From Brumimicrobium aurantiacum (GTDB lineage Bacteria; Bacteroidota; Bacteroidia; Flavobacteriales_D; Crocinitomicaceae): 64,000 bases of DNA. A program made the position numbers and the translations under genes. The stretch lies in NCBI RefSeq assembly GCF_003402975.1, contig NZ_QURB01000003.1:1-64000 (forward strand). Reading direction: 5' to 3'. Below the pieces are notes generated by a model that saw only the letters and a program-made list of their open reading frames with translations, made no database searches and was not told the origin of the DNA. Below, piece by piece: positions 6,655 to 45,517 of this stretch (the stretch's first letter is position 1; each line of letters opens with the position of its first letter).

Positions 6655-9600
6655 ATGTTTTTTAATGTAAAAAAGAGCAAATTTGCTAATGTATTATTGG
6701 TGTTATTGACCGTTGTTTTTGGTTGGTCAAATGCGTGGGGGCAAACGACGATTGCTAAAAATAGTTTTGAAACTTCAGGTGATACTTGGACTCCAATTAC
6801 CTTTTCTGTGTCTCCTTGTACCAATGGGTCGGATAGATGGGATTACTCAACTAATTTAAGCAGTATTAGTCCTAGTGATGGTTCACAATTTTGGGGAATT
6901 CAAGATCTAAATGGAAATTGTGGTGGAAGTGGATTCGAAACAATTACATTTCCATCTTTGAATGTAAGTGCATATACAAATGTTGAAATATCATTTGATT
7001 ATTATACAATTGGTTTCGACGGAACTGATGAGGTGGGTTATGAAATATGGGAAGATGGAGTAAGGGTTGTTAATTCAACGAGTCTCAATAAAAATACTGG
7101 CAGCTGGATTACTGAAACTCATAATGTAACAAATGGAGTTTCAGATGCTTATTTGGTTTTGAAAGTACAACAAGACGGTGGTTCTGATTATGCAGGTTTT
7201 GATAATGTTGAAGTAATAGGTACTTCCGCTGGTCCAACGTTAATAACCACTCCAACTTCACTTACAGATTTAAACTACGTAGTTGGAAATGGCCCTTCGG
7301 CGGTTCAATCTTTTGATTTGACAGGAGCTAATTTAGATGGAACGACAGATGTGGAATTATTGGCAGGTACAGGTTTTGAAATATCGACCAATAATTCAAC
7401 TTTTTCAGGATCTTTGAATTTAGGAGCTAGTACTTCACTTTCACAAACAATATACGTTCGATTGGAAAGTGGTTTAGGGGTAGGGAGTTATTCCGATATC
7501 GTTTGGATTTATGGTGGTGGAGCGACTGATGTTGAAGTTGATCTTGAAGGAGAAGTTTGGTTAACTGCACCGCCGTTGGTTTATTGTACTTCAAGCGCTT
7601 CGAATAATTGGAGTCAACACATTTCAAATGTAGAATTTGGTACAATAGATTTTGGCGCAGGCTCAAATGGATATGAAAATAATACTTCAATTTCGACGAA
7701 TGTTACAGTTGGACAAATTTACACTTTAACAGTTGAAAACGGCGCTCCATATAACAATGAAGAGATAAGTGTTTGGATCGACTGGAATCAAAATGGAGAT
7801 TTTACTGATGCCGGAGAAAAAGTTGTTAATCAATTGTATGCCGGTAATTTCTTAACAAATACAGATATCAATATCCCACTAACCGCTGGCATAGGTTCAA
7901 CGCGAATGAGGATTTCTATGCATAATTCTGGATCAATAACCTCTTGTGAGTCATATAACTACGGAGAAGTAGAAGATTACACAGTAAATGTAGTTCCTGC
8001 ATCTCCAACCCTTGATGTGAGCCCAACTTCACTTTCGGGACTTGATTATACTTTTGGTTCAGGACCCTCAACTGTACAATCATTTGAACTAACGGGAAGT
8101 AATTTAGATGGAACAGATGTAGAATTAATTACTATCATAGATGACTGTGAAATTTCACTATCCAACAATAGCGGTTTTGGTCATTATCTTAACCTACCTG
8201 CATACAATGGAAATGCAACAACAATTTATGTGAGATTAAAAGCAGGCTTGATGGTAGATAGTTATATAGATCAAGTATTAATTTCTGGTGGAGGGGTAGC
8301 AGCTGCCAATGAGCCTGAAGTTGATCTTGAGGGAGAAGTAACGCCCACTCCTTATGATGTGATTTTTGATGCAAATGGAGGGGCGGGAACAATGGCTAAT
8401 CAAACTATTATCTCAGGAGCGACAGAGAATTTAGACGCAAATACTTTTACAAGGTCAGGATATGTTTTTGATGGTTGGTCAACTACATCTAGTGGTACAG
8501 TTGATTATATGGATGGTGCTGCATATACAATGGGAAATAATGATGTTACATTATATGCTCTTTGGTCAGTTTATACTGGACCTTGTTTTGCTATGAATAC
8601 GCCTGATTTTACTGGTTCTTCAGGTTATACAGGAAGTGGTGATCCCGATTCTGGAGGTTCTCCAACATCAACGGTTAGATTAGCTTCGGGAAGTAATCCT
8701 GGTTCAATTTCTACAACTGCAACAGGAGTTACCTCAGGAGATATTTCAGTTGAGTTTAGAGCCAAAGGTTGGGATAGTAATGAATTACAAGTTACAGTTA
8801 CAGTTGATGGGACTTCTCAATTTATTTCTAATCTAAATTATAATGCTTTTGAAACGAGGACACTCTCATTTACTGGTGTTTCTGCAAATCCTGTAATTGA
8901 GTTTAGCACTGTTTCGGGTAAGAGGGTTCATATAGGAAATGTGGAAATATATTGTTTGGTGGCATCCCCAACCCTCACAACTTCCCCAGCATCGCTCACA
9001 GGCCTTAACTATGTCGTAGGAAATGGACCATCAACTGTGCAAAGTTTTGATTTAACAGGGAGTAATTTAGATGGAACGACAGATGTAGAATTATTGGCAG
9101 GAACAGGTTTTGAAATATCGACCAATAATTCAAATTTTTCAGGATCTTTGAATTTAGGAGCTAGTACTTCACTTTCACAAACAATATACGTTCGATTGGA
9201 AAGTGGTTTAGGAGTAGGGAGTTATTCCGATATCGTTTGGATTTATGGAGGTGGTGCAACTGATGTTGAAGTTGATCTTGAGGGAGAAGTAACGCCCACT
9301 CCTTATGATGTGATTTTTGATGCCAATGGTGGAACGGGAACAATGGCTAATCAAACAATTACCTCAGGAGCGACGGAGAATTTAGACGCAAATACTTTTA
9401 CAAGGTCAGGATATGTGTTTGATGGTTGGTCAACTACTTCTAGTGGTACAGTAGACTTTACAGATGGTGCTGCATATACAATGGGAAATAGCGATGTTAC
9501 ATTATATGCTGTTTGGTCAGTTTATACTGGGCCGTGTTTGGAAGATGATTTTAATAGTGGATATGGAAACTGGACAGAAGGAAGCGGTACTTACAATAAT

Positions 9601-12600
9601 AATAATGCTGGATATTCTGGAAATGGAATAGGTTTTAACGATAATAATGATGATATCATTACAGCTTCTACGATGACTAACCCACAATCCATTAGCTTTA
9701 ATTGTAGTGCAACTAGTAGTGCAAATTATACAATATTGATTCAATATTCAACTTCAGTCTCTGGACCATGGACGACTTCAGCTTCATTAAGTGCTAATGG
9801 TTCAAATACTGGAGATATAACGACAAGTAATTCTTTCAAAAACATTTCTTTAAATTTAAATGGAGATTATTATTTGCGAATTATTCAGACACCTAGGTCG
9901 GGGGGAAGCTTCTATTTAGATGATGTAGAAGTATATTGTGGACCAACAACGCCATCCTGTACTTCTACAGCTTCAATTACTTCTTTTATGCCAACATCTG
10001 GGCCAGCGGAAAGCTTGGTTACAATTTCAGGTTCTGGTTTTACAGGAGCAAGTGCTGTGAAATTTGGTAGTGCAAGTGCGTTGAGTTTTACAATCATTGA
10101 TGACAATACCATTGTTGCTGAAGTACCTTCAGGATTAAGTCCTACTGTAGATGTTTTTGTATCGGATGCTTCAAGTTGTGATGCTCAAGGCTCAAGTAGT
10201 TTTACATTTATAGAATATGACGGTACTTGTGGAAATTATCCAGGATATACAGATTTGTTTATCTCAGAGGTATATGATTCTGATAGTAATAATGAATGGC
10301 TGGTGGAGTTATTTAACCCAACCCCAAATGCAATTACTTTAAATGGAGTTTATGAGGTTAAACGAGCAGGAGATATTTCTTCATCACCTTCTTATTCAAG
10401 AACGATAACCCTTACAGGAACTGTGGCAGCGAATAGCACTTATACACTAAACATCGGAACTAGTAGTTCTTGTAGTGGGAGCTATGATTTTAGTGAGTCA
10501 GGGGCGGGTATAAATGAAGAGGATATGATTACCCTATTTAAAAATGGTACACTTGTAGATGTAGTTCATGCACCAGACGATATAGGTTATTCTTTGCTAA
10601 GAAATGTTGGAACTAGTGTTGTGGCTCCTTCAGATACGTATATTGCTTCTGATTGGACAGCGAATAACTCAGAAAGTTGTAGTGATCTAGGCACATATAA
10701 TTTAACAATAACTCCTGCAATAAGCTTGACTTCAGGTCCAACAGATGTTACCAGTTGTTCTGTTTCAATGTCGGTTGTTTCTTCTACTTCAGGAGTGAGT
10801 TATAAATGGATGTACAATGATCCGTCGAATATGGCAGGCTGGTCTGAAGTGAATGCCTCTAATATTAACGTTGGAACCATTTCAGGAGAAACTTCTGCAA
10901 ATTTGACTATTTCAGGTGATGTTTCTTCATTAATTGATTTTCAATTTTATTGTGAAGTATCAAATGGAACCTGTGATTTAGCTTCAAACTCCGCGCAATT
11001 CGATGTTGATTCAAAACCTATTTATCGTTCTGTGGTTTCTGCCAATGGAAATTGGTCTGATTACACCAATTGGGAAATGTCTACTAATTACACAACATAC
11101 ACTGCAGCTTGTACTTATCCACGAGATTTTAACTCCGATGAGGTAATTATTCAAGATGGTACAACGATTGTTTATGATTTAACAGGTGCTGATGAGATCA
11201 CAATTAACAAAGTGACAATTGAGGCAGGCGGAACACTAGAGTTGTCAGCAAGTAGTCATTTAACTATTGAAGGAAATACTGCAAACGCAGATTTAATTGT
11301 TAAAGGAACATTGTTTGACCGAACAAATAGTTCTCATTCATTAAGTTTAACATCAGGAACTACTTGGGAAATTAATTCCTCAGGAACATTTATTAAAAGT
11401 AATGCGGGTGCTATTGCATTTTATCGAGACCAATATGAGGGAGGGATGTCTTCAATACCAGCAGGAGCAACTTGGATTTATCGATACAATGGAGATGGAA
11501 ACCCAAGTGTTGGAGCAGTGAATTTCTTTTATCCAAATTTGATTTTCGAGAATACAACAGGATCTACATATTCTTGGAATACGGTGGGGAACTTATTCGA
11601 TGGCAGTACTGGCGGGTATACCACAGTTAAAGGAAATTTTGATATTGGCGTAAGCGGTAATGCTGGTTGTGAAGTGGCAATAGTGAATTTTAATTCACAG
11701 CCCATGCTCATTCATGGAGATCTATTCATAGAGGCAGGTTCTAAGCTTATAAATAAAAATAGTAGTGCATCCACATTTGGTACTGGAGTAGAATTGAAAG
11801 GGAATTTAACCGTGAATGGAGAGCTTAATATATTAAATGGTTCAACTGAACGAGTTTTAAAATTTTCTGGTAGTGCAGATCAAAGTGTTTCAGGTTCTGG
11901 AGTGTTGAATCTTTATAAAGTAGATGTGAATAAATCAGGAGGTAGTATGATGATTCATAAAGATTTCCATGTTCAAAACGAACTTGTAATGAACAATAGT
12001 AATATTTATTTGAATGGGAACTTAATAGAACTTGGCCTTTCTACTACTCAAAAAGGAACTTTAACCTATACAACTGGATATGTTGTGGGGAAAATGCGTC
12101 GTTGGTTTGACGGAACAAATGCTGGAAATGCATCTAGTTTATTCCCAATTGGAAGTAATGATTCTGGATTAAAAAATAGAAATGCAAAAATAGAGTTTAC
12201 GAATGCACCTTCAAATGGAGGATACTTGACAGTAGAGTTTATTAATTCACCAATGACATATGACGGACTTCCAATTTCATCCACTAATTCTGGCGGAGCA
12301 GGCTTTGATATAACCACTGCTGAAGATCAAGGCTTTTGGAAGATGGAAAATGAATCAGGAAAGTTAGATGATGGACAATATACGATAACCTTAAATGGAG
12401 AAGGGTTTACAACTGTAAATAATTTAAATCAGTTAACCTTATTGAAACGTGTAGTAACAAATAGTCCGGATTGGTTTTGTCCTGGGAATCATGTTTCTCC
12501 TACTGGTTCAGTTTCAAATCCTATAGTTGCACGTTCGGGAGTAACAGGTTGGTCGAATTTTGGATTTGGTGGGGGAGTAGTCAACCCATTGCCGATAACT

Positions 12601-13143
12601 TTAAGTAGTTTCAATGTAATCTGTAATGAAATGAATGAAATTACCGAAATTCAATGGACAACAGCAAGTGAATCAAATTCTTCTCATTTCATTGTCGAAA
12701 AAAGTACTGATTTTATCAATTGGAATAAAGTTGAAACCATCGCAGCAGCTGGAAATAGCGATCAATTTAACCATTATAATGTTTTAGATAGATCAGGAGT
12801 TGGTGGAATTAATTATTATCAACTTATACAATATGATTTTGATGGAGAATATGAGGTGTTTTCTCCAATAAGTAGTGAATGTAATTTTAATTCAAATAGT
12901 ATAAATATTTATCCAAACCCTACAGATGGTGTTGTAATTATTCAGGTAGATTGGAAAAGCAAATCAAAATATAGCTTGTATGAATTGACTGATGCTACGG
13001 GTAGGATTATTGCGTTAAATGAGACAATGTTGAAGCAAGGGAAAAATGAAATTAATCTTGATTGTTCACTATACTCAGCAGGAGTTTATACCATTACTTT
13101 TCCTCAATCGAATTTAAAACCTCAGAAATTAATTGTAAAATAG
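6655..13143 (+). CDS. Giant T9SS-exported mosaic adhesin with InlB-type B-repeats
   Basis: Secreted protein of 2162 residues assembled from surface modules. Seen in order: signal peptide to about 30 (NAWGQ); a jelly-roll-like region (31-195); a Bacteroidota repeat module of about 100 residues at 198-301; a GEVED domain at about 362-447 (WIDWNQNGDF, YGEVEDY); the same module at 452-562; a Listeria-Bacteroides (InlB B) repeat at 563-642 (DANGGAGTM, GYVFDGWST); a beta-rich domain; the module again at 773-879; a second InlB B-repeat at 880-959; a further beta domain; an IPT/TIG domain at about 1103-1187; a lamin-tail-like domain at about 1196-1345; a long beta-rich segment; and a T9SS type A sorting domain at about 2085-2162 (IYPNPTDG, YSAGVYTI, KLIVK end). 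This domain order points to T9SS export and anchoring and a role in adhesion or gliding. The modules are near-identical in DNA, see the repeat entries. Confidence 0.92.
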   Translation: MFFNVKKSKFANVLLVLLTVVFGWSNAWGQTTIAKNSFETSGDTWTPITFSVSPCTNGSDRWDYSTNLSSISPSDGSQFWGIQDLNGNCGGSGFETITFPSLNVSAYTNVEISFDYYTIGFDGTDEVGYEIWEDGVRVVNSTSLNKNTGSWITETHNVTNGVSDAYLVLKVQQDGGSDYAGFDNVEVIGTSAGPTLITTPTSLTDLNYVVGNGPSAVQSFDLTGANLDGTTDVELLAGTGFEISTNNSTFSGSLNLGASTSLSQTIYVRLESGLGVGSYSDIVWIYGGGATDVEVDLEGEVWLTAPPLVYCTSSASNNWSQHISNVEFGTIDFGAGSNGYENNTSISTNVTVGQIYTLTVENGAPYNNEEISVWIDWNQNGDFTDAGEKVVNQLYAGNFLTNTDINIPLTAGIGSTRMRISMHNSGSITSCESYNYGEVEDYTVNVVPASPTLDVSPTSLSGLDYTFGSGPSTVQSFELTGSNLDGTDVELITIIDDCEISLSNNSGFGHYLNLPAYNGNATTIYVRLKAGLMVDSYIDQVLISGGGVAAANEPEVDLEGEVTPTPYDVIFDANGGAGTMANQTIISGATENLDANTFTRSGYVFDGWSTTSSGTVDYMDGAAYTMGNNDVTLYALWSVYTGPCFAMNTPDFTGSSGYTGSGDPDSGGSPTSTVRLASGSNPGSISTTATGVTSGDISVEFRAKGWDSNELQVTVTVDGTSQFISNLNYNAFETRTLSFTGVSANPVIEFSTVSGKRVHIGNVEIYCLVASPTLTTSPASLTGLNYVVGNGPSTVQSFDLTGSNLDGTTDVELLAGTGFEISTNNSNFSGSLNLGASTSLSQTIYVRLESGLGVGSYSDIVWIYGGGATDVEVDLEGEVTPTPYDVIFDANGGTGTMANQTITSGATENLDANTFTRSGYVFDGWSTTSSGTVDFTDGAAYTMGNSDVTLYAVWSVYTGPCLEDDFNSGYGNWTEGSGTYNNNNAGYSGNGIGFNDNNDDIITASTMTNPQSISFNCSATSSANYTILIQYSTSVSGPWTTSASLSANGSNTGDITTSNSFKNISLNLNGDYYLRIIQTPRSGGSFYLDDVEVYCGPTTPSCTSTASITSFMPTSGPAESLVTISGSGFTGASAVKFGSASALSFTIIDDNTIVAEVPSGLSPTVDVFVSDASSCDAQGSSSFTFIEYDGTCGNYPGYTDLFISEVYDSDSNNEWLVELFNPTPNAITLNGVYEVKRAGDISSSPSYSRTITLTGTVAANSTYTLNIGTSSSCSGSYDFSESGAGINEEDMITLFKNGTLVDVVHAPDDIGYSLLRNVGTSVVAPSDTYIASDWTANNSESCSDLGTYNLTITPAISLTSGPTDVTSCSVSMSVVSSTSGVSYKWMYNDPSNMAGWSEVNASNINVGTISGETSANLTISGDVSSLIDFQFYCEVSNGTCDLASNSAQFDVDSKPIYRSVVSANGNWSDYTNWEMSTNYTTYTAACTYPRDFNSDEVIIQDGTTIVYDLTGADEITINKVTIEAGGTLELSASSHLTIEGNTANADLIVKGTLFDRTNSSHSLSLTSGTTWEINSSGTFIKSNAGAIAFYRDQYEGGMSSIPAGATWIYRYNGDGNPSVGAVNFFYPNLIFENTTGSTYSWNTVGNLFDGSTGGYTTVKGNFDIGVSGNAGCEVAIVNFNSQPMLIHGDLFIEAGSKLINKNSSASTFGTGVELKGNLTVNGELNILNGSTERVLKFSGSADQSVSGSGVLNLYKVDVNKSGGSMMIHKDFHVQNELVMNNSNIYLNGNLIELGLSTTQKGTLTYTTGYVVGKMRRWFDGTNAGNASSLFPIGSNDSGLKNRNAKIEFTNAPSNGGYLTVEFINSPMTYDGLPISSTNSGGAGFDITTAEDQGFWKMENESGKLDDGQYTITLNGEGFTTVNNLNQLTLLKRVVTNSPDWFCPGNHVSPTGSVSNPIVARSGVTGWSNFGFGGGVVNPLPITLSSFNVICNEMNEITEIQWTTASESNSSHFIVEKSTDFINWNKVETIAAAGNSDQFNHYNVLDRSGVGGINYYQLIQYDFDGEYEVFSPISSECNFNSNSINIYPNPTDGVVIIQVDWKSKSKYSLYELTDATGRIIALNETMLKQGKNEINLDCSLYSAGVYTITFPQSNLKPQKLIVK
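7275..7556 (+). repeat. Intragenic repeat A, copy 1 (second copy at 9009-9290)
   Basis: The module copy at 7275-7556 is nearly identical in DNA to 9009-9290, spaced exactly 1734 bases (578 codons). From 7336 on, only scattered single-base changes are seen over about 220 bases. A third, clearly diverged copy lies at about 8008-8340. Confidence 0.85.
8341..8580 (+). repeat. Intragenic repeat B (InlB B-repeat), copy 1 (second copy at 9292-9531)
   Basis: The 240-base block encoding the first InlB-type repeat is nearly identical to 9292-9531, spaced 951 bases (317 codons), including most third-codon positions. Copy 2 directly follows the second copy of repeat A, so 9009-9531 looks like a fusion of both earlier units. 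Confidence 0.85.
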
Positions 13144-13149
13144 AGAAGT

Positions 13150-15288
13150 TTACTGAATATACAAACGTTGAGTTTCTCTAGTTTCTAAATTATGAATAAA
13201 GAAGATACCATGACCATCAAAAGTGGTTGAAGATTGGTTGTCTACATTTTTTATTGTTCGGCCTGTGATGGAATAAATACGGTAATTTCCTTTCTCTGGA
13301 AAATGAATAATTCTTGTTTGTCGGTCATAGTATATTCTATTAAACTTAATATTTATTGAAATAATTTGATTGTGTTTTTTTATTCCTTCAAAATTTTCAG
13401 ACGTTAACTTATAATATTGTATCCCATTGTTATGTATAGCATGTTTTATAGAATACTCCGTCGAATTATTGTTTTTACCTAAGGCCTTGACTTTGGTGAC
13501 TTCTTTAAAATTGATACCATCGTTTGAATGATAAATTGTATAAAAATCAGTATCGATCTCCATGCTTGAAATCCATTTGAGAAGAACTTGTTTTTTATTT
13601 CTTTCTGCAGTAAAAGATGTTGATTTATTTTGTAATGCAATTAAGCCACAGTTTCCCGTTGTCGATCGAAGCATTTTGATCCATTTTTCATTTTCAACAC
13701 TGTTACTAGAACCAGGTGTTTCTTCAGCGGAAGCGTTTCCTATATTCCAGTTATTAATATTTCTAAAATCGCCATTGTTAAAATATCCATTCATAAATTG
13801 CATATTGTCATCACTTAGTTTTGTACCATCAATTCCTCCATTATTTAGCTCTCCATAAGATAACCCAAAGAAATAATCACCATTTGGTTTTCTTGTTTGT
13901 ACTGCATCATTATCATTATTTAACCCAATAGTGGCAGGCCAACTGGTAAGCGTTGGAGCGGGAGCGGTATTAGGACTATAGGTAGAGTCCGAAGCGTTAG
14001 GGAACTCGTGAAGCGGTTCTAAGAATGTTGTATTGTTGTAAGGGATTATGTAAACCGAATCAGAATTTGAATCTGTTGGATCATCTGCTGGAATTAATGG
14101 ATTTCTTGCTCCAGAAGAGCTATTGTAAATCACAATTATAGAACCTACAGCGATGCCACTCCATTGTATGTCATTGGTTAGTTTTAAATGTCCATCAGAA
14201 ATTCCCTCATTCCCATATTCACCATTATTATCATCTATGATATACTCACGAATATCAGTTGTGGATCCACATTCTCCTAGGACAACCAGTTCGAAATATT
14301 CTTGTGCTCCTTCTGGACCATTAGAAAATTCATTAATAACAATTCCACCAAAATCTGGAATTACTGGTAAACAAGGATAGGTATTGTCAATTTCTATGTC
14401 GTGTCCATTATTACTTCCGTAAATAGTAGGAGAATTACTTTCCACTCTTATTCTATAATTAGAACCAGCATTGTAATTTGATGGTATCGTTATTGGAATA
14501 TTTCCAGAGATGTTTGTTCCAGATAATGAAATACTTCCAATTTGATCACTATTAAGGAAGGATCCATTCATGTCTGAAATGTAGGCATTGAATTCATTAC
14601 CAGAGTTAAAACTTCCTGTTGTTGAAAAAGAAACTGAACTGTTGTATTCTGTACTACAATTAACAGCAATGTAATTTAGGGAAAATGTGGTTGAAATGGT
14701 GTTTGAATTACATGCTGGAGCCTCTCCAAACCCTGTCATTGTACTTCCATTACTAATAAATTCAAAGCGAATACTAGGATCAGTCCAATACGTAGTGGTT
14801 CCAGTACATATACCCGGTTTTATAGCAATGTTTTGATTTGCTGTGCTCACTCCACTTCCATCCCAACTTGAACCAGGATCATTACTACATTCTCCGATGA
14901 CATCCATCAACACACCGTCTAAATATAATTCTAATGCATCGTCTCCATTAAAGATAAAGCCATAATCAGTAACTCCAGCAATATCGTTTCCATTGATAGC
15001 AAAATTGACAAGGTCTGTAGACCCAACAACCCAAACCTGATTTGGGCCAATAACACCAGAGTTAATTGTCACTTTTGTTGAACATGGATCTCCATTTGTT
15101 CCTTGAGAAATGCTTATGTTTTGACTTGATAGATCAATGGAATTTGAAGAATGATTATATATTTCAATTCCTTTAGGTATACTACCAGAATTAGTTTCAA
15201 TATATTGACTAATCATAATTTGTGAAATAGCCGAATTACCTAAGCCGAATAGTATACATATAGCGAATAGAAGATTAAATGGTTTCAT
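13150..15288 (-). CDS. Secreted lamin-tail-domain protein with sorting-like C-terminus
   Basis: Secreted protein of 712 residues from the ATG at 15288, chosen because it starts a clean signal peptide (MKPFNLLFAICILFGLG, cleavage near SAIS); an upstream in-frame TTG at 15318 would place extra polar residues before it. Seen: a first lamin-tail-like domain right after the signal peptide (KGIEIYNHSSNSIDLSS, DDALELYLDGV), a beta-sandwich middle, a second lamin-tail-like domain from about 315 (GIVINEFSNGPEGAQEYFELVV), and a C-terminal region resembling a T9SS type A sorting domain (YRIYSITGR, FFIHN) but without the usual YPNP motif. Convergent with the adhesin gene, 6 bases between the stops. Function inferred as a T9SS-exported surface protein, possibly of the same system as its neighbour. 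Confidence 0.82.
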   Translation of the reverse strand: MKPFNLLFAICILFGLGNSAISQIMISQYIETNSGSIPKGIEIYNHSSNSIDLSSQNISISQGTNGDPCSTKVTINSGVIGPNQVWVVGSTDLVNFAINGNDIAGVTDYGFIFNGDDALELYLDGVLMDVIGECSNDPGSSWDGSGVSTANQNIAIKPGICTGTTTYWTDPSIRFEFISNGSTMTGFGEAPACNSNTISTTFSLNYIAVNCSTEYNSSVSFSTTGSFNSGNEFNAYISDMNGSFLNSDQIGSISLSGTNISGNIPITIPSNYNAGSNYRIRVESNSPTIYGSNNGHDIEIDNTYPCLPVIPDFGGIVINEFSNGPEGAQEYFELVVLGECGSTTDIREYIIDDNNGEYGNEGISDGHLKLTNDIQWSGIAVGSIIVIYNSSSGARNPLIPADDPTDSNSDSVYIIPYNNTTFLEPLHEFPNASDSTYSPNTAPAPTLTSWPATIGLNNDNDAVQTRKPNGDYFFGLSYGELNNGGIDGTKLSDDNMQFMNGYFNNGDFRNINNWNIGNASAEETPGSSNSVENEKWIKMLRSTTGNCGLIALQNKSTSFTAERNKKQVLLKWISSMEIDTDFYTIYHSNDGINFKEVTKVKALGKNNNSTEYSIKHAIHNNGIQYYKLTSENFEGIKKHNQIISINIKFNRIYYDRQTRIIHFPEKGNYRIYSITGRTIKNVDNQSSTTFDGHGIFFIHNLETRETQRLYIQ

Positions 15289-28314: not shown

Positions 28315-29879
<1,565 letters not shown>

Positions 29880-36252: not shown

Positions 36253-36370
36253 TTTCGGACAAATGTGTATTTGTAAACAGAATTTTTCTTAGATGTTAAA
36301 TTTTCTAAATGAATTTTTTCTATATTTACACTTTTCGAATAATTTGAGTAAGAATAAATAATAAAAACTT

Positions 36371-39300
36371 ATGATACGTAAATTCTACTTTTTGTTTTTA
36401 AGTGTTTTGTTGTCAGTAGGTTCTGTTTTTGGGCAGGCTGGTAATGGAACAATCAAAGGATCGGTTCTTGATAGTGAATCAAATGAGCCAATACCTTTTG
36501 TGAAGGTTGTTTTATATCAAGGTGGTATAATTAAGGGGGGTACAGAGTCTGATTTTGATGGGAAATTCCAATTTCCATCGATTTCTTCAGGATCTTACGA
36601 TGTTGAGTTCCGTTCTCAGGAATACAAACCTATTAAAATTGAGAACGTTTCTGTTTCTGCAGAGAAGATTACTTTCTTAGATAAAACAAAATTAACTAAG
36701 CCAGAGGATGTTCAAGAAATGGAAGAGGTGCAAATTGTTGCCTATAAAGTTCCTTTGATTAATAAAGATGGTGGAGCTCAAGGTTCTACTGTTACACGTG
36801 AGGATATTTCTAAACTTCCTGTACGTTCGGCGAGTGGAGTTGCTTCTACTGTTGGAGGTGTAAATGAATCAGAAAGTTCTGGAGGTATTAGTGTAAGGGG
36901 ATCTCGTGAAGGAGCTTCTTACTATTATATTGATGGTATTAAAGTTCGTGGTTCTTCTAACTTACCGAAATCTGCGCTTGAAGAGGTGCAGGTTATTACA
37001 GGTGGTGTTCCTGCCAACTATGGGGATGCAACTGGTGGTATTATCTCGGTTACAACAAGAGGGCCATCAGCACAATACTTCGGTAGTTTAGAAGCTGTAT
37101 CATCTGGTTTTTACTTTCATGGAGAAAACGAATTAGGTTATGATGGAAAGGTGATTGGATTAGATCAATTTGGATATAACCTTGTAGAAGGAATGGTTTC
37201 AGGGCCTTTATTAATGAGAAAAGATTCTACTGGAAAGAAAACAGAACCAATCTTAGGATTCTTGATTTCAGCGTCGTTTAATGATCAAATTGATTCTCGA
37301 CCTTTCGCTGATGGTTCTTATAGAATTAAAGAGGATGTAAGAGAAGAATTGATTGCGAATCCTTTAAGACCTTCTGCAGATGGTCAAGGTTATTTTAATA
37401 ACTCAGACTTCCTACGTGAAGATGCTTTCGAAAAAACACCTTATAGAATGAATGCCCGTCGTAGAACAATCTCTGCTTCTGGTAAAATTGATGTTAATAC
37501 GGGACCAACTGTGAATTTAACATTTGGTGGTTCTATGAATTATAATGGAGGTAAAGCATATAGTTATGATAATTCTTTATATAACTTTGATAATTTTGGT
37601 AATTCAAGTCAGTTTGACTGGAGAGTTTATGGACGTTTAACACAACGTTTTAGAAATGACACTGAAGGATCAAGTTCAAAAGTTAAAAGTTTCTACTATA
37701 ATTTAATGGTAGATTATTCTAAATCTTCTTCAGAGGTTTATGATGAAGATCATAAATATAATATCTTTAACTATGGTCATGTAGGTTACTTTAATTCAAC
37801 TTACCGACCAACATACTCATTTAATGATGCAGAAGATAGTTTAATTCATGATGATTTTGAGTCAGTGATTGTTGACTTTTCACCATCAGATATTAATCCA
37901 ACTTTATCTGCTATAACAAGTCAATATTATGCATTGAATCCTAATCCACAAGGTAGTTACCAAAATATTGAGCAAATCAATAATGGTGGAGGTTTAAGAA
38001 ATGGAGATTCTCCAATTAGTGTTTACGGAATTTGGAGTAACATTGGTACACCTTATAATAGCTTCTTTAAAGGAGAAAATGAGCAGTTAAGAATTACAGG
38101 TTCTGCTTCTGTAGTTATTGGTGGACATAATATCTCTTTAGGTGTTGAGTACGAACAACGTTGGGACCGTGGATGGGGTTCTGGTAATTACTTCTCAAGA
38201 GCAGGTGCAGGACCAATTGGAATCTGGGAAATTTCTCGTCAATACATGAACAGTCACATTGAAGAGTTAGATTTAAATAACCCTAATTATGATTTTTACG
38301 GTACTTACCCTCGTGTAACTTATGACCGTTTAAACAGTGGATATGCTGCTAACGCTGGAAATGGTGAGTATGGAGGTGTAGCACAAAACGATGACCAATA
38401 TTTCTTCGATTATAACTTTAGAAAAGCATTAGGTCTTGATCCAGCTGGTGATGACTATATTGATATCGACCGTTATGATCCAAACATGTTCACTTTAGAT
38501 ATGTTCTCTCCAGATGAATTGTTTAATTCAGGACGTAACTTTATTTCTTACTATGGTTATGACCACACAGGAGAAAAAGTTTCTGGAAATACTGATATCA
38601 ATGACTACTTTACAGAAACAGATGAAAATGGAAACTATGAACGTTTCATCGGAGCTTTCCAACCAACTTATGTTTCAGGTTACATTATGGATAAGTTCTC
38701 CTTCGATGATATCGTATTTAACGTTGGGGTTCGTGTTGATGTTTTTGATGCTAACCAACCAGTATTGAAAGATCCTTATTTGTTCTATAATGCAAGATCA
38801 GCTTCTGAAGCGAGTTCATTAAAAGATCAAGACCCAAATACTTATGGATGGATTGATATTCCAGAAAGTATTGGTGATGATTATGTAGTTTACGTAAACG
38901 ATGTAGAGAACCCAACTCAAATTAACGGATTTAGAAATGGAGAAACTTGGTATGATCAAGATGGTACAGTAACGCAAGACCCTTCTACAATTAGAGGTGC
39001 TTCAGGTATTGCTCCTTGGTTGTTGAACCCATCTCAATCAACTCCATCTGCTGATGCATTTGAAGATTATAAAGTTGCAATTAACGTAATGCCACGTATT
39101 GCATTCTCTTTCCCAATCTCAGATGAGGCAAACTTCTTTGCAAACTACGATATCTTAACAAGTAGACCATCAACAGGTCTACGTTTTAATCCAATCGATT
39201 ATCAATACATTACAGCAAGAAACATTGTTATTAACAATTCAAACTTGCGTCCAGATAAAACAATTGACTACTCTTTCGGATTCCAACAAGTTTTAACACG

Positions 39301-40138
39301 TACTTCTTCTTTAAAAATTAGTGCTTTCTACCGTGAGTTGAGAGATCAAATTCAAGTAAGAAACGTATTTGAAGCATACCCTGTAACATACAGAACTTAT
39401 GATAACCGTGACTTCGGTACTGTTAAAGGTTTAACTTTAGAATATGACTTAAGAAGAACAGGAAATTTAAGAATGACTGCTAACTATACTTTACAGTTTG
39501 CTGAAGGTACAGGTTCTGACGCAAGTTCATCTTTATCATTTGTTAACTCAAATCAACCAGATTTACGTGTTGTTTATCCTTTCTCTTATGACCAAAGACA
39601 CGCTTTCTCTTTCACTGTTGATTACCGTTACGGTTCAGGAAAAGATTACAATGGTCCAGTAATTAAGGATAAAAATATTTTAGAGAACACTGGATTAAAC
39701 ATTATTACATTAGTTAATTCAGGAACTCCTTATTCAGATCAGAAAAACATTACTCCAGCTGCGATTAATTCTGGTACTCCACAGTTAACTGGTACTTTGA
39801 ATGGTTCTCGTAAGCCTTGGACTTACCGTTTAGATTTACAGTTAGACAGAACGTTTGACCTTGAGTTTGGTAAGGAAAATGAAAAGAAAAAACGAGCTTT
39901 CTTAAATGTTTATGTACGTGTTACCAACCTTTTGAATCAGTTTAACGTACTTAATGTATACAGAGCAACTGGTGTTGTTGATGACGATGGTTACTTAGCT
40001 GCTGCTGAATGGCAATCAACTATCCAAAGTAAAATGGATGAGCAGGCTTATAGAGATTTATACAGTATGTATATGAACAATCCTTATAACATTAGTCAAC
40101 CAAGAACAATAAGATTAGGTGTTAAATTTGATTTTTAA
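36371..40138 (+). CDS. Large TonB-dependent receptor of the surface operon
   Basis: 1255 residues. Seen: signal peptide (1-23, VFGQ), carboxypeptidase-regulatory-like domain (about 26-115: GTIKGSVLDSESNEPIPF), TonB plug (about 135-240: REDISKLPVRSASGVAST, GISVRGSREGASYYYIDG, ITGGVPANYGDATGG) and a very large beta-barrel with long inserted loops, ending in a terminal strand RTIRLGVKFDF. It is larger than a typical siderophore receptor (700-800). Third-position use shifts to TTC, AAC, GGT and CGT from about 38,100, as in highly expressed genes. It leads a tight unit (22 and 28 base gaps) with a 1402-residue exported protein and a PorV-like protein, so it probably forms one outer-membrane assembly with them. 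Ligand unknown. Confidence 0.9.
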   Translation: MIRKFYFLFLSVLLSVGSVFGQAGNGTIKGSVLDSESNEPIPFVKVVLYQGGIIKGGTESDFDGKFQFPSISSGSYDVEFRSQEYKPIKIENVSVSAEKITFLDKTKLTKPEDVQEMEEVQIVAYKVPLINKDGGAQGSTVTREDISKLPVRSASGVASTVGGVNESESSGGISVRGSREGASYYYIDGIKVRGSSNLPKSALEEVQVITGGVPANYGDATGGIISVTTRGPSAQYFGSLEAVSSGFYFHGENELGYDGKVIGLDQFGYNLVEGMVSGPLLMRKDSTGKKTEPILGFLISASFNDQIDSRPFADGSYRIKEDVREELIANPLRPSADGQGYFNNSDFLREDAFEKTPYRMNARRRTISASGKIDVNTGPTVNLTFGGSMNYNGGKAYSYDNSLYNFDNFGNSSQFDWRVYGRLTQRFRNDTEGSSSKVKSFYYNLMVDYSKSSSEVYDEDHKYNIFNYGHVGYFNSTYRPTYSFNDAEDSLIHDDFESVIVDFSPSDINPTLSAITSQYYALNPNPQGSYQNIEQINNGGGLRNGDSPISVYGIWSNIGTPYNSFFKGENEQLRITGSASVVIGGHNISLGVEYEQRWDRGWGSGNYFSRAGAGPIGIWEISRQYMNSHIEELDLNNPNYDFYGTYPRVTYDRLNSGYAANAGNGEYGGVAQNDDQYFFDYNFRKALGLDPAGDDYIDIDRYDPNMFTLDMFSPDELFNSGRNFISYYGYDHTGEKVSGNTDINDYFTETDENGNYERFIGAFQPTYVSGYIMDKFSFDDIVFNVGVRVDVFDANQPVLKDPYLFYNARSASEASSLKDQDPNTYGWIDIPESIGDDYVVYVNDVENPTQINGFRNGETWYDQDGTVTQDPSTIRGASGIAPWLLNPSQSTPSADAFEDYKVAINVMPRIAFSFPISDEANFFANYDILTSRPSTGLRFNPIDYQYITARNIVINNSNLRPDKTIDYSFGFQQVLTRTSSLKISAFYRELRDQIQVRNVFEAYPVTYRTYDNRDFGTVKGLTLEYDLRRTGNLRMTANYTLQFAEGTGSDASSSLSFVNSNQPDLRVVYPFSYDQRHAFSFTVDYRYGSGKDYNGPVIKDKNILENTGLNIITLVNSGTPYSDQKNITPAAINSGTPQLTGTLNGSRKPWTYRLDLQLDRTFDLEFGKENEKKKRAFLNVYVRVTNLLNQFNVLNVYRATGVVDDDGYLAAAEWQSTIQSKMDEQAYRDLYSMYMNNPYNISQPRTIRLGVKFDF

Positions 40139-40159
40139 TAGAGTAAAAACAGTAAGATT

Positions 40160-43100
40160 ATGAGATTATTATTATTAGTATTAATTGGTGTTAGTTTCAC
40201 ATTTGGAACGAATGCCGCACTAGATCCGACTGCTGATTACGGCAAGTCAAAGCCTTTAGGTGGAGGTCAGGATTACAATAAAGCTAATTGTCCCCCATCA
40301 GATGGACTTTTATATATGGACTTTAACGACGTTGAAGCCCTCGTTGAGGTTGGTGGGTCGTTATGGCAAGATCGTCAAGCTGGAGCTGCTTCTTACGAAG
40401 TACCAGTTGGAGGTGGAAACCATGTTCTTTTCTCTGGTTCTATTTGGATGGGGGGAGTTGACGTAAATGGTCAATTGAAACTAGCCGCTGTGTTGTTTAG
40501 AACAAGTGGAAATGATTTCTGGGGTGGACCTTTATCTGTTGTACCTGGAAGTGGAAACTATGACCCAAGTCAACCTGTAGGAGATAATTCAATTCGTCCT
40601 TTTGGTTTAGGTACGATTGATCCAGAAACTTGTATTGAGTATGATAAGTTTTTCCCTATAGCAAAATCAGAGGTAATTAATTTTACACTTAGACATGAGT
40701 GTAGTATTGATCCAAATTGTACTGATCCTTCTCAATATCCTTTAACAAATGACGCTATTGAAAGAATTAATAACTGGCCAGCTCATGGTGATGATGTTGT
40801 TAAAAAGCAAGATTATTATTTAGCTCCTTTCTATGATTACCCTTCTCAAGGTGGTTCAGGAGATGGTACATATGATCCATCTCAAGGTGATGTTCCTTGG
40901 TTCGATGATATTCTTGGTAGAGATGATGTTAATTGTGGTATCGATAGACGTGTTACTTTATTCGGTGATAAAACTAACTGGTGGGTATTTAATGATAAAG
41001 GAAACATTCACACAGAAACAGGTGGTGATCCGATTGGTATGGAAATTCGTGCTCAAGCATTCTCTTTCGCTACGAATGATGAAGTGAATAGAATGACATT
41101 CTACAACTATGAAATGATTAATCGTAGTTCTACAACACTTGAAGACACTTACTTCTCTCAATATGCAGATGCAGATATAGGTTTTGCTGAAGATGATTAT
41201 GTAGGTTGTGATGTTTCTAGAGGTTTAGGTTATGCTTATAATGGTGATAACACTGATGAAGGTGGAAATGGTGCACCTGGATATGGTGATAATCCACCTG
41301 CAGTAGGTATTGACTTCTTTGAAGGACCGTATCAAGATGCTGATAATATTGATAACGTTGGTCCAAGATTGGTGACTGCACCTGATGGAACAACTGAATA
41401 TGTTACGCCAACTGTGAATGAAGCGATTGCCGGTAAAGGTATTGTATACGAAGGTATTGGTATTGGTTATTCTGATGGTATCATCGATAATGAGCGTTTC
41501 GGAATGCGTAGATTTAACTATTTCGATAGAGGAGACCTTGGTACTCCTTCTACTGATGACCCTAGTAGTCCTTCTGATTTTTATAATTATATGACAGGAT
41601 TCTGGAAAGATAATTCAGCATTTATCTATGGTGGTAAAGGGTACACTGGTACTCCTGGTGCTGTAGAAGGTGTTCCTGCTGATTACTGTTACCCTGGAGA
41701 TACAGATCCATTACACTTCGGAACTCGAGGTCAAGATATGGGATGGGATTGGTCAGAGTTAGACGTTGATGGTAACGGTACTTCAAATCCTATTGGAGAT
41801 AGACGTTTCTTACAATCTGCTGGACCATTTACATTAACTCCTGGTGCAGTAAATAACTTAACTGTTGGTGTTGTTTATGGACGTTCTTATGATGGAAATT
41901 CTTTCGCATCAGTTGAGGCGTTAAGAAAAAATGATACTAAAGCACAAGCTTTATTTGATAACTGTTTCGAAATACTTGATCCACCATCTGCTCCGATTTT
42001 AGAAATCGTTGAATTAGAGAATGAATTAGTATTGATGATTGATAATCCATTCGGAAATAATGTAAATGAAGAGTATGCAGAAGAAGATAATATTAATATC
42101 GTTGACCCATTAGATGGTTCGGAAATTGATAAAGTGTACAACTTTGAAGGTTATCAAATTTATCAAATGGTAGATGACGAAGCAGGTGTTTCTGATATTG
42201 GTCTAACAGATAAAGCACGTTTAGTTGCACAATGTGATATTGAAAATGATATTGATCGTATTATTAACTTTGAATTTGATGAAGAATTAGGTTTCTCTAA
42301 ACCAGAGTTGAAAGTAGATGGTCAGAATCAAGGTATTCGTCACTCATTCCAAATTACGGAAGATCAGTTTACAGGTAACGCACTTGTAAACCACAAGACA
42401 TACTATTATATTGCAATTGCCTATGCTCACAATGAGTTTAAAAAGTATGATCCAACAGACCCACAACTATTAGATGGTCAAACAATGCCTTATATTAGTT
42501 CTCGTTTGTCAGCTGATGGAAGTGCAATTAAGGCTACAGTTGGTATTCCTCACTCTCCACAACCTCGTTTTGATGGAACAATAGTGAACCTACCTTATGG
42601 TTCTTCTCCAGAAATTACAACTTTAGATGGTAAAGGAAATGGTAACAGAGTTATTGACTTAACTCAAGCGACCGAAGACTTTATCGTAGCAAATGGTTCA
42701 GTAGATACTCCTACTTACCAACAAGGTAAGGGACCAATCGATGTTAAAGTTGTTGATCCATTAAATTTAGTAGATGGTTACTTTATGTTGGAGTTTGTTG
42801 ATTACAACTCAAACTTGATTGATACAGCTAGTTGGACAATTAAGAGATACGATTCAAAAGGAGGTAATTTGATTGAAGAAGTATCATCAAATAGAACAAT
42901 TGAGTTTAAGAATGAACAATTAATTCCTGAATGGGGACTTTCTGTAGCGATCTACCAAGATAATTACCCTTGTGCTCAAGGAACAGAAAACTGTAACTTT
43001 AGAGATCGAATTGCGAAGCCAATAGAAACAACTCTTGAATTTGCAGATAGTTCGAAGAGATGGTTATCAGGTGTTTCTGATGTTGATACATACACACCTT

Positions 43101-44368
43101 TTAACTGGATAGCTTCAGGTGATTACACAACAACAGATTGTAATGAAGCCCTTGGTTTAAATAATCCATGTTGTTATTTAGATTTAGTAGGGGTAGATCC
43201 TGATAAAGAATTTGCTTCTATCTTTAGTGGTACTGTTACATTAGGACAATTGGCTAGAAGAAACGATTGTGGATTTATGCCTATCGGTATTCCAAATGTA
43301 AATGGAATCGACGAAGGTTCATTTAGTTCTATTGAAAAGACACAAATGCCTTCAGTGTATCAAACAAGTGTTGATATTGTGATTACACAAGATAAATCTA
43401 AATGGACTAGATGTCCAGTAATTGAGTTAGGTAGTGATGAAAATCTAAATATCAATGGTGGTTTAGCTGGTTTATTACGTCAGAGTCCATCTATAGATAA
43501 GAATGGAAATCAAGTTGGTGACCCTGGATACAATGCTTCTGAGGCGAATCCAAATGGAACAACTGCTGTAGGAATGGGATGGTTCCCTGGTTATGCAATC
43601 GATGTTGAAACAGGTCGTAGATTAAATATGGCTTATGGGGAGAATTCATTCTTAGTTGGTGAGAACGGTGCAGATATGATTTGGAATCCAACATCAAATC
43701 TTGTAAACTCAACAGGAAGCCCATTATTTGGTGGTCAACATGTTGTTTACGTATTTGGAAACGAAGATCAAGAGATTCCTAACTATGATGAAGGTGAGTT
43801 TATTTATAATAAATTAGCTTCAGAAGATGAAGATGATTATAAAGATGTATATGGTGGATTATCATGGGTAATAAACCCAACCCTTGCTGAAGATGCTGAA
43901 TTATTATCTACAGATGTACGAATGAGAATCAGAATCAACAAAGAGTACGCTGAATATGCACAATCTAATGCATTTGGCGGAAGACCAACTTACGAATGGA
44001 ACATGGATGGATTTAGAACAATTAAGAATGACGAAGAAACTCTTGCAGATGCTTTAGATATGATTAATGTTGTTCCTAACCCATACTATGCTTATTCAGA
44101 TTACGAATTAGGTAGACTTGATACACGTGTTAAGATTACAAACTTACCAGAGCGTTGTAAAGTTAGAATTTACAATACTTCAGGTAAATTAATCAGAGCT
44201 TATGATAAAGATAGTCCGATTACTTCTATTGATTGGGACTTGAAAAATGATGATAATATCTCAGTTGCTGGTGGAGTTTATTTAATTCATGTTGATGTTG
44301 AAGGAATTGGAGAGAGAGTAGTTAAATTCTTCGGTGGTCTAAGACAAACAGATTTAGAGAACTTATAA
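40160..44368 (+). CDS. Very large exported protein with sorting-like C-terminus
   Basis: 1402 residues, a Bacteroidota family I recognise by pattern but cannot name. Seen: signal peptide (about 1-19), an N-terminal conserved block at about 45-130 (YMDFNDVEALVEVGGSLW, GSIWMGGVDVNGQLKLAAVLFR, NDFWGGPLS), an aspartate- and glycine-rich middle (about 180-620) with many DG/DN turns that could bind calcium, a mixed region, and a C-terminal domain at about 1305-1402 (NVVPNPYYAYSDYELG, RVKITNLPERCKVRIYN, GERVVKFFGG) that looks like a variant of the T9SS C-terminal sorting domain. Probably secreted or displayed at the surface and bound by the PorV-like product of the next gene. Function not known; it is expressed from the same transcript as the TonB receptor. 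Confidence 0.88.
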   Translation: MRLLLLVLIGVSFTFGTNAALDPTADYGKSKPLGGGQDYNKANCPPSDGLLYMDFNDVEALVEVGGSLWQDRQAGAASYEVPVGGGNHVLFSGSIWMGGVDVNGQLKLAAVLFRTSGNDFWGGPLSVVPGSGNYDPSQPVGDNSIRPFGLGTIDPETCIEYDKFFPIAKSEVINFTLRHECSIDPNCTDPSQYPLTNDAIERINNWPAHGDDVVKKQDYYLAPFYDYPSQGGSGDGTYDPSQGDVPWFDDILGRDDVNCGIDRRVTLFGDKTNWWVFNDKGNIHTETGGDPIGMEIRAQAFSFATNDEVNRMTFYNYEMINRSSTTLEDTYFSQYADADIGFAEDDYVGCDVSRGLGYAYNGDNTDEGGNGAPGYGDNPPAVGIDFFEGPYQDADNIDNVGPRLVTAPDGTTEYVTPTVNEAIAGKGIVYEGIGIGYSDGIIDNERFGMRRFNYFDRGDLGTPSTDDPSSPSDFYNYMTGFWKDNSAFIYGGKGYTGTPGAVEGVPADYCYPGDTDPLHFGTRGQDMGWDWSELDVDGNGTSNPIGDRRFLQSAGPFTLTPGAVNNLTVGVVYGRSYDGNSFASVEALRKNDTKAQALFDNCFEILDPPSAPILEIVELENELVLMIDNPFGNNVNEEYAEEDNINIVDPLDGSEIDKVYNFEGYQIYQMVDDEAGVSDIGLTDKARLVAQCDIENDIDRIINFEFDEELGFSKPELKVDGQNQGIRHSFQITEDQFTGNALVNHKTYYYIAIAYAHNEFKKYDPTDPQLLDGQTMPYISSRLSADGSAIKATVGIPHSPQPRFDGTIVNLPYGSSPEITTLDGKGNGNRVIDLTQATEDFIVANGSVDTPTYQQGKGPIDVKVVDPLNLVDGYFMLEFVDYNSNLIDTASWTIKRYDSKGGNLIEEVSSNRTIEFKNEQLIPEWGLSVAIYQDNYPCAQGTENCNFRDRIAKPIETTLEFADSSKRWLSGVSDVDTYTPFNWIASGDYTTTDCNEALGLNNPCCYLDLVGVDPDKEFASIFSGTVTLGQLARRNDCGFMPIGIPNVNGIDEGSFSSIEKTQMPSVYQTSVDIVITQDKSKWTRCPVIELGSDENLNINGGLAGLLRQSPSIDKNGNQVGDPGYNASEANPNGTTAVGMGWFPGYAIDVETGRRLNMAYGENSFLVGENGADMIWNPTSNLVNSTGSPLFGGQHVVYVFGNEDQEIPNYDEGEFIYNKLASEDEDDYKDVYGGLSWVINPTLAEDAELLSTDVRMRIRINKEYAEYAQSNAFGGRPTYEWNMDGFRTIKNDEETLADALDMINVVPNPYYAYSDYELGRLDTRVKITNLPERCKVRIYNTSGKLIRAYDKDSPITSIDWDLKNDDNISVAGGVYLIHVDVEGIGERVVKFFGGLRQTDLENL

Positions 44369-44395
44369 GTAATAGAAACTTAACTTTAGTAAACA

Positions 44396-45460
44396 ATGAA
44401 TATGTTAAAAACGATAATAAAAGGTTCAATGATTGTGGGAGCTCTGGCTATGAGCTTCCCAACATTAGCCGGAAACGAAGATCGAATCGGTTCAGCAGGT
44501 GCTAGTGAAATGTTAGTTAATCCATGGGCTCGTTCTACTGCTTTCGGAAGTGCAGGAGTAGCATCTACGGATGGTTTAGAAGCGCAATTTGCTAATATTG
44601 CTGGTTTAGCCTTTACTGATCAAACACAAATTAAATTTAACTATACTAACTGGTTAGGTGATGCCGGAATTTCTTTAAATTCTGCTGGTATTGCTCAGCG
44701 TGTGGGAGATCAAACAGTTATTGCATTGTCTCTTCAAGCTTATGGATATGGTGATATTGATATTACAACGGTTGATCTTCCAGAAGGAGGTATAGGTCAA
44801 TTTAGTCCAAGGAAAAATATTATTAATATTGGTTTTGCTAGAGAATTTTCGAATTCTATTTATGCAGGATTAAATGTTAAAGTATTGAATGAAAACATTG
44901 CAAACCTTAAAGCCACAGGAGTTGCATTTGATGCCGGTATCCGTTATGTTACAGGTGAACAAGACCAAATTAAATTTGGTATTACGTTGAAAAATGTTGG
45001 TACACCAATGAGTTTCACAGGAGATGGACTTTCTAAGGAAATTCTTTACCAAACAACTGGTGGAGTAGCTACAATGGTGCAACGTTCAGCTTCTTTTGAA
45101 ATGCCTTCTTTATTAGCTATGGGGTTCTCTTATGACTTTATCTTTGATGAGTCAAGTAAGTTGACTGCAGCCGCAGCATTTCACGCTAATTCATTTACAA
45201 ATGACCAATTTAATATTGGTTTAGATTATGGTATGGCTTATGATAAAGCAGCATTTAATATAAGAGCTGGATTTGTTGGTGAAAAAGCAATTTTTAACCG
45301 TGAAGAATCTACAAACAGTTTAACTGGTTTAACAGCAGGTGTATCTGTTGATGCTTTATTAGGTGAAAATGCTATTCCACTTGGTTTTGAATATGCAATG
45401 CGTACTTCTAACCCATTTGGAATTATTAATACTTTTGGTGTTACTCTTAGTTTGAAGTAA
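44396..45460 (+). CDS. PorV/PorQ family outer-membrane protein
   Basis: 354 residues. Seen: signal peptide (about 1-25, TLAG), then NPWARSTAFGSAGVAST and LEAQFANIAGLAF, the family opening seen in PorV, PorQ and FadL-like barrels, and repeated amphipathic strands to the C-terminal LSLK. PorV is the T9SS shuttle that receives cargo with C-terminal domains at the translocon; PorQ and other members have related roles. It is shorter than classic PorV (about 390) and sits behind its likely client, so I call the family only. The 3' end contains the -33 and -7 region of the greA promoter. Confidence 0.87.
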   Translation: MNMLKTIIKGSMIVGALAMSFPTLAGNEDRIGSAGASEMLVNPWARSTAFGSAGVASTDGLEAQFANIAGLAFTDQTQIKFNYTNWLGDAGISLNSAGIAQRVGDQTVIALSLQAYGYGDIDITTVDLPEGGIGQFSPRKNIINIGFAREFSNSIYAGLNVKVLNENIANLKATGVAFDAGIRYVTGEQDQIKFGITLKNVGTPMSFTGDGLSKEILYQTTGGVATMVQRSASFEMPSLLAMGFSYDFIFDESSKLTAAAAFHANSFTNDQFNIGLDYGMAYDKAAFNIRAGFVGEKAIFNREESTNSLTGLTAGVSVDALLGENAIPLGFEYAMRTSNPFGIINTFGVTLSLK

Positions 45461-45481: not shown

Positions 45482-45489
45482 TATAAGCG

Positions 45490-45517
45490 AGAGGGTCTTT
45501 TGGCCCTCTTGTTTTTT
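45490..45517 (+). terminator. Intrinsic terminator of the surface operon, lying in the greA leader
   Basis: Stem AGAGGGTC (45490-45497) with GGCCCTCT (45502-45509), 8 pairs including one G-U, TTTT loop, followed by TGTTTTTTG. It ends transcripts from the PorV-like gene and would also be the first structure in a transcript from the promoter at 45474. Confidence 0.85.

Follow-up and report, generated by a model that had tools for sequence, protein, structure and literature searches.

SusCD/RagAB and BtuBG are TonB transporters that have surface lipoprotein lids. Among the substrates of the T9SS, sorting domains (CTDs) of type A are all recognized by PorV (PMC12618676), and in cryo-EM structures a near-invariant lysine near the end of the type A CTD touches PorV (PMC10994853). 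For type B CTDs in F. johnsoniae, the cognate carriers are PorP/SprF proteins encoded next door. The CTD-carrier pair sets the final location of type B substrates, orphan substrates share a carrier, and reporter-CTD assays are already in use in this organism (PMC12618676). PorQ appears to anchor PorZ in the attachment complex of P. gingivalis (PMC5562754), and the CTDs of PorZ and PorU are among those reported as not removed (PMC11285876). A review has suggested that cognate PorV-like barrels shield CTDs from cleavage (PMC10202324).

Here, we describe a three-gene unit in the genome of Brumimicrobium aurantiacum. The window is the whole stretch of DNA analyzed, which is 64,000 nucleotides long (contig NZ_QURB01000003.1, positions 1 to 64,000), and it contains the following features.

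36300 to 36345, + strand: upstream element with TATATTTAC, similar in the window and in 9/9 same-genus loci examined; a promoter by resemblance only
36371 to 40138, + strand: A, TonB-dependent receptor of 1255 aa (ORF; carboxypeptidase-regulatory-like domain 27-100, plug 139-224)
40160 to 44368, + strand: B, exported protein of 1402 aa with a conserved body and a CTD (ORF; family without a Pfam or NCBIfam name)
44027 to 44365, + strand: CTD of B, residues 1290-1402 (PNP start, invariant W, G-x-Y, lysine 1389, conserved 13-residue tail)
44396 to 45460, + strand: C, PorV/PorQ-family (FadL-like) outer-membrane barrel of 354 aa in a clade of its own (ORF, family models, tree)
45485 to 45514, + strand: intrinsic-terminator-like hairpin 3' of C (13 pairs, then a T run)

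This unit resembles each of the described systems in part. Like PorZ and PorQ, B and C would be a CTD-retaining protein and the PorV/PorQ-family barrel that anchors it (PMC5562754). However, PorZ is a beta-propeller of the secretion machine and B resembles it in the CTD only; furthermore, C scores below the PorQ cutoff (80 bits versus 220), and a TonB receptor belongs to the unit of the trio. As with type B substrates and PorP/SprF, a putative substrate gene is followed by the gene for what may be its own FadL-like carrier (PMC12618676), but B has no match to a type B CTD model and C is not PorP/SprF. The type A CTD and PorV share CTD landmarks and the barrel superfamily with B and C, and a structural search with C ranks PorV of 8gl6 first, whereas the clade of C is separate and the CTD of B is extended and falls under the TIGR04183 cutoff. 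A large surface protein is encoded beside a TonB receptor, as in SusCD/RagAB and BtuBG, although by eye B has no lipobox, a barrel would hold it at the surface, and A has no NCBIfam match. In BamG-BamH of the Bacteroidota BAM complex, a FadL-like barrel touches a surface protein, as C may do with B; unlike B, BamH is a surface lipoprotein and not a T9SS CTD protein, and the partner is BamA (PMC12578637).

RESULTS

Three putatively exported proteins are encoded in one tight unit

The three ORFs lie on the + strand and end at the hairpin, forming the single tight unit described in the first-pass annotation, although the spaces between the genes are 21 bases (A-B) and 27 bases (B-C) rather than the 22 and 28 given there. 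The unit is set off by a 186-base gap 5' of A and by the hairpin and T run 3' of C. A sigma-70 promoter scan gave matches that were not above those of shuffled sequences, and an Rfam search over the whole window gave 0 matches. Downstream of C, many loci of the order and class have ORFs of about 157 and about 129 aa; in the window these are the ORFs at 45516 and 46010, which we take to be greA-like and HIT-like. The N termini of A, B, and C were judged by eye to be Sec-type leaders with no lipobox cysteine.

Codon adaptation was calculated against 27 ORFs of the genome's own ribosomal-protein cluster, picked by eye, with fusA and rpoA. Values for A, B, and C were 0.776, 0.779, and 0.765, which place them at percentiles 96, 97, and 95 among 138 ORFs of the genome, a set that includes the three themselves. 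The bias had been likened to that of atpD; it is indeed strong and exceeds that of the atpD-like ORF at 28353 (0.722, percentile 84 of the same 138 ORFs).

A is a TonB-dependent receptor by its Pfam matches, with a CarboxypepD_reg domain (49.5 bits, above the cutoff) and a TonB plug (37.1 bits versus a cutoff of 23.9). It had no match among NCBIfam models at E values up to 1, SusC/RagA included, and none in the PDB by sequence. Neither mark of a SusCD-like pair, a SusC/RagA model match and a lipoprotein partner, was found, as A has no such match and the leader of B, by eye, has no lipobox cysteine.

B is conserved throughout its order

B matched no Pfam family above that family's own cutoff and no PDB entry by sequence. 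The AlphaFold2 (AF2) model of residues 1-1200 had a mean pLDDT of 86 and a pTM of 0.77, and a Foldseek search with this body model returned nothing at an E value of 0.001 or better. We name no carbohydrate role for B because the matches to GH15, GH94, GH116, and similar carbohydrate-active enzymes were too weak, with a TM score (query) of at most 0.16 among the matches listed. In an alignment of 65 B proteins, with members chosen among the fetched B sequences, the acidic residues D337, D339, D346, D351, and D385 are invariant and could bind a metal or a ligand.

B was found in 57/59 relatives (52/52 of the good genomes) and in 144 of 150 genomes drawn evenly from the order (119/119 of the good ones). 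The order sample covers 13 families, and the sole family without a match, f12, is represented by one genome that is 78 percent complete. In a draw across the phylum, 53 of 296 genomes had B at an E value of 1e-20; outside the order, B occurred only in five genomes of the same class, all from family f18. SprA was present in all 53 B-bearing genomes of this draw and in 228/296 overall, and none of the 68 genomes lacking SprA had B (Fisher 3e-7, with kinship ignored).

Some B-like sequences stand apart. The B. aurantiacum genome has two B-like paralogs of 1004 and 534 aa (C1, L126:8027-11038 and 12635-14236), which have type A ends above the TIGR04183 cutoff and no A or C adjoining; these apparently have a similar body sent by the general route. 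In one genome assembled as a single contig (G053 C1:2983126-2987177), the B homolog is broken by several stops, through either decay or sequencing error. Additionally, six metagenome-assembled contigs labeled Chryseobacterium gleum (L140, L141, L154, L164, L176, and L202) carry a Crocinitomicaceae-like B, and their labels look wrong.

The A-B-C order is deeply conserved

Gene order was assessed with a frame scan of loci L066-L125 and L135-L214, which hold 142 B ORFs of at least 900 aa (140 without duplicates); A had to lie within 400 bases of B, and C within 500. Because these loci were picked for holding B, the counts describe how often A and C accompany B and not the reverse. Long-CTD copies of B (n = 122) comprised 87 with A-B-C, 3 with A and B only, 1 with B and C only, 20 with B alone, and 11 in which the end of the contig cut off one side. 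Thus, among nonredundant long-CTD copies with both flanks resolved, the order A-B-C was found in 87/111, with C directly downstream in 88/111 and A upstream in 90/111. The co-occurrence of the three families that the first-pass annotation implied therefore holds in other genomes. The 20 lone copies and the 3 A-B copies without C mean that C may act in trans or may be dispensable in some cases. Two tandem A-B-C-B arrangements, in which a second B directly follows C, were seen (L232 and L234), and L020, L029, and L203 are likely further cases.

B ORFs with a short or oddly placed end (n = 9) were alone in 5 cases and had a side cut in 4 (L171 and L180 are truncated ORFs), while the 9 copies without a readable C terminus comprised 1 A-B-C and 8 that were cut. 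C was present with 88/111 long CTDs versus 0/5 short ones (P = 6e-4), a test that carries little weight because two loci (L100 and L105) supplied four of the five short ends as copies, and the remaining one (L203) is a long type that is slightly shortened.

The CTD of B is PorZ-like with a conserved extension

In B, residues 1289-1378 align with the CTD portion of PorZ model NF052228 (E = 1.4e-7; 30.3 bits versus a cutoff of 260). Against the type A CTD model TIGR04183, B scored 15.7 bits, below the cutoff of 23, and was absent from the 134 own-genome matches at an E value of 1e-4. Neither type B CTD model, TIGR04131 or PF13585, matched at E values up to 1. The label of variant sorting domain that had been given to B is right, since the PorZ match is to the CTD part and the TIGR04183 score, like that match, is below cutoff. 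A PDB search with a CTD profile gave PorZ (E = 1.3e-4) and PorU (0.034) as its best matches.

Within the 65-protein alignment, P1306, N1307, P1308, W1359, and G1372 show no variation, and at least 90 percent of sequences have K1389; likewise, the P-N-P, W, G, and K columns are invariant across 28 CTDs. The modeled domain has seven predicted strands of at least 3 residues along with the G-x-Y and the lysine near the end, as in a type A sandwich. In the window, 13 residues follow K1389, the last being L, and the final residue in most relatives is F, L, I, or Y. The distance from G-x-Y to the C terminus is 30-32 residues in 79/85 A-B-C rows versus 21-22 residues in the type A tails of the B. aurantiacum genome (29 of the 30 best TIGR04183 matches). 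Judged from sequence, the CTD of B is PorZ-like with a conserved extension, a class distinct from type A. A 2162-aa ORF elsewhere in the window (6655-13143) ends in a type A sorting domain (C16:12907-13140).

C belongs to a fourth clade of the PorV/PorQ family

C is a member of the PorV/PorQ family, to which it had already been assigned, by both the PorV_fam model NF033709 (149.4 bits versus a cutoff of 90) and Pfam PorV (34.7 bits versus 27). It falls below the models for PorV (NF033710; 73.1 bits versus 250), PorQ (NF033711; 80.2 versus 220), and PorV2 (NF052325; 42.7 versus 325), for which the genome's own PorV, PorQ, and PorV2 score 410, 314, and 489 bits, respectively. Nor is it PorP/SprF (TIGR03519; 17.6 bits versus a cutoff of 90.55). 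In addition to C, the same genome encodes PorV with PorU, PorQ, PorV2 with PorU2, and a fifth member of the family that matches weakly.

A tree was built from 92 PorV-family proteins, leaving out the barrels L276, L268, and L272 from a GC-rich genome, which ORF calling had missed. The trio C proteins fall in one clade of 33 rows (support, 100/100) that is separate from the PorV, PorQ, and PorV2 clades (each 100/99), which were named through NCBIfam models above cutoff. This clade holds 31/31 of the trio C proteins used, one protein from the same order (G043_L285), and L337, from a further B-C pair in genome G228. In five class members without B, 11 of 13 PorV-family matches were placed in the tree, and 0 fell in the trio-C clade. 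The tree places C in a fourth clade, next to those of PorV, PorQ, and PorV2.

The CTD of B is predicted to dock on C

For AF2, the CTD of B was covalently joined to C through an in-frame read-through, and the matched pair only was modeled. The prediction had a mean pLDDT of 90.9 and a pTM of 0.87, with low confidence confined to the start, linker, and leader. By a rough calculation, an unplaced CTD would give a pTM of about 0.70, and 0.87 corresponds to an error of about 3 Å. Judged by pLDDT and pTM, the model confidently predicts that the CTD docks on the C barrel, in line with the pairing that had been proposed. In a Foldseek search with this model, PorV of 8gl6 (the RemA-CTD complex) ranked first and FadL proteins next.

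The evolutionary distances of A, the B body, the CTD, and C all correlate pairwise at 0.87-0.95. The partial correlation of CTD and C is 0.19 (0/999 permutations as high), lower than those of A and C (0.34) and of the B body and C (0.39), and thus co-variation does not single out the CTD-C pair.

DISCUSSION

These results led us to the view that C is probably the dedicated carrier and lasting anchor of B and that B would work with the transporter A; the three genes probably build one surface machine. B would be a T9SS substrate whose CTD class is reserved for its own carrier. Acting in PorV's place, C would take the CTD of B from the SprA translocon and would stay bound, so that B would be held noncovalently on the surface through its uncleaved CTD, as PorQ holds PorZ. 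B and C would then be a new pair that fits the CTD protection suggested in the review. A, from the same gene unit, would be the membrane partner of B, and B would most likely be a surface receptor or lid for it; we infer that B is perhaps the lid. The coupled genes, strong codon bias, and TonB receptor suggest nutrient capture by A with B. The role of C as a dedicated shuttle or anchor, raised in the first-pass annotation, is supported by the A-B-C order, the separate clade of C, the matching CTD class, and the CTD-C model.

B could instead be an ordinary type A substrate that PorV carries and whose CTD PorU cuts, leaving B linked to LPS or released while C acts otherwise beside A. We consider this unlikely, even though the genome encodes PorU and PorV, lone B copies exist, and the CTD keeps the PNP, G-x-Y, and lysine of type A; since this lysine is the one that contacts PorV, PorV might still carry B. 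TIGR04183 stays below cutoff on B yet has 134 other matches in the genome, the conserved tail adds about 10 residues to the CTD, and the nearest solved chains are PorZ and PorU. Moreover, a C of one clade adjoins B in most copies. That last observation also bears on a decidedly improbable reading in which A and C would be the working pair, the TonB receptor with a FadL-like channel serving a hydrophobic nutrient; B would then be an adhesin or layer protein that is linked to them but acts separately. The FadL-family structural matches of C would suit such a pair, as would two receptor-like genes directly 5' of a PorV-family gene without a CTD protein (G240_322 and G228_333, by C-terminal ends only), but AF2 sets the predicted CTD of B on C, and C is directly downstream of 88/111 resolved long-CTD copies.

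It had also been proposed that A powers or completes the assembly. We found no support for this, as nothing tested points to A in secretion, and we regard a role of A in energizing or completing the export of B as very improbable. A does precede B in 90/111 resolved long-CTD copies, but the GldLM/PorLM motor drives the T9SS (PMC12618676), 20 stand-alone copies of B have no A, and the portions of the literature surveyed offered no precedent. A more ordinary reading is that A would act in uptake and that B would sit on top of it.

The layout recurs around other PorV-family genes. In three distant genomes (G088, G240, and G228), 38 of 44 PorV-family matches were examined for a gene with a trio-type CTD (at least 38 bits) no more than 700 bases upstream of the barrel; ORF choice is unsure in the GC-rich G088. 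Such a gene lies upstream of 21/38, with a TonB receptor before it in 18 of these 21, and the layout is therefore recurrent and not a single operon. By score, 4 of the 21 upstream proteins belong to the B family of the window, and the remainder are other kinds of B. Ten of these other B proteins had no NCBIfam match above cutoff (5 matched the PorZ model weakly, 1 matched only the PorU model, and 4 matched nothing), and seven of them searched against Pfam gave no family. The 17 misses include PorU-PorV pairs, receptor-like genes directly 5' of the barrel, two without a long upstream ORF, and several without a recognizable partner; at L322 (G240) and L333 (G228), judged by C-terminal ends only, no CTD protein lies between receptor-like gene and barrel. 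The statement in the first-pass annotation that similar trios occur elsewhere in the phylum was right, and the pattern extends beyond what was stated there.

More tentatively, and with somewhat less than even confidence, the trio may represent a phylum-wide, unnamed class of outer-membrane machine, in which a TonB transporter works with a very large, T9SS-delivered, nonlipoprotein surface receptor; a PorV-family barrel dedicated to this receptor would both carry it and clamp it by way of an extended CTD that stays uncleaved. The trio of the window would be the member universal in the order, and some distant genomes would have several paralogous trios each. Among open-licence PMC papers, judged by title or the start of the abstract, none treats the trio or a PorV-family carrier besides PorV, PorQ, and PorP/SprF. 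Our findings suggest a further substrate-carrier pairing of the T9SS beside type A-PorV, type B-PorP/SprF, and PorZ-PorQ. They also draw attention to B, a 1402-residue, order-wide putative surface protein with strong codon bias and no named family or close solved fold in the libraries searched. PorV/PorQ-family proteins that are otherwise unexplained would gain a role. The B. aurantiacum genome also has a second sortase-barrel pair (C20, L129:9294-15570), in which PorV2 adjoins PorU2 (1718 aa) and both score above their NCBIfam cutoffs.
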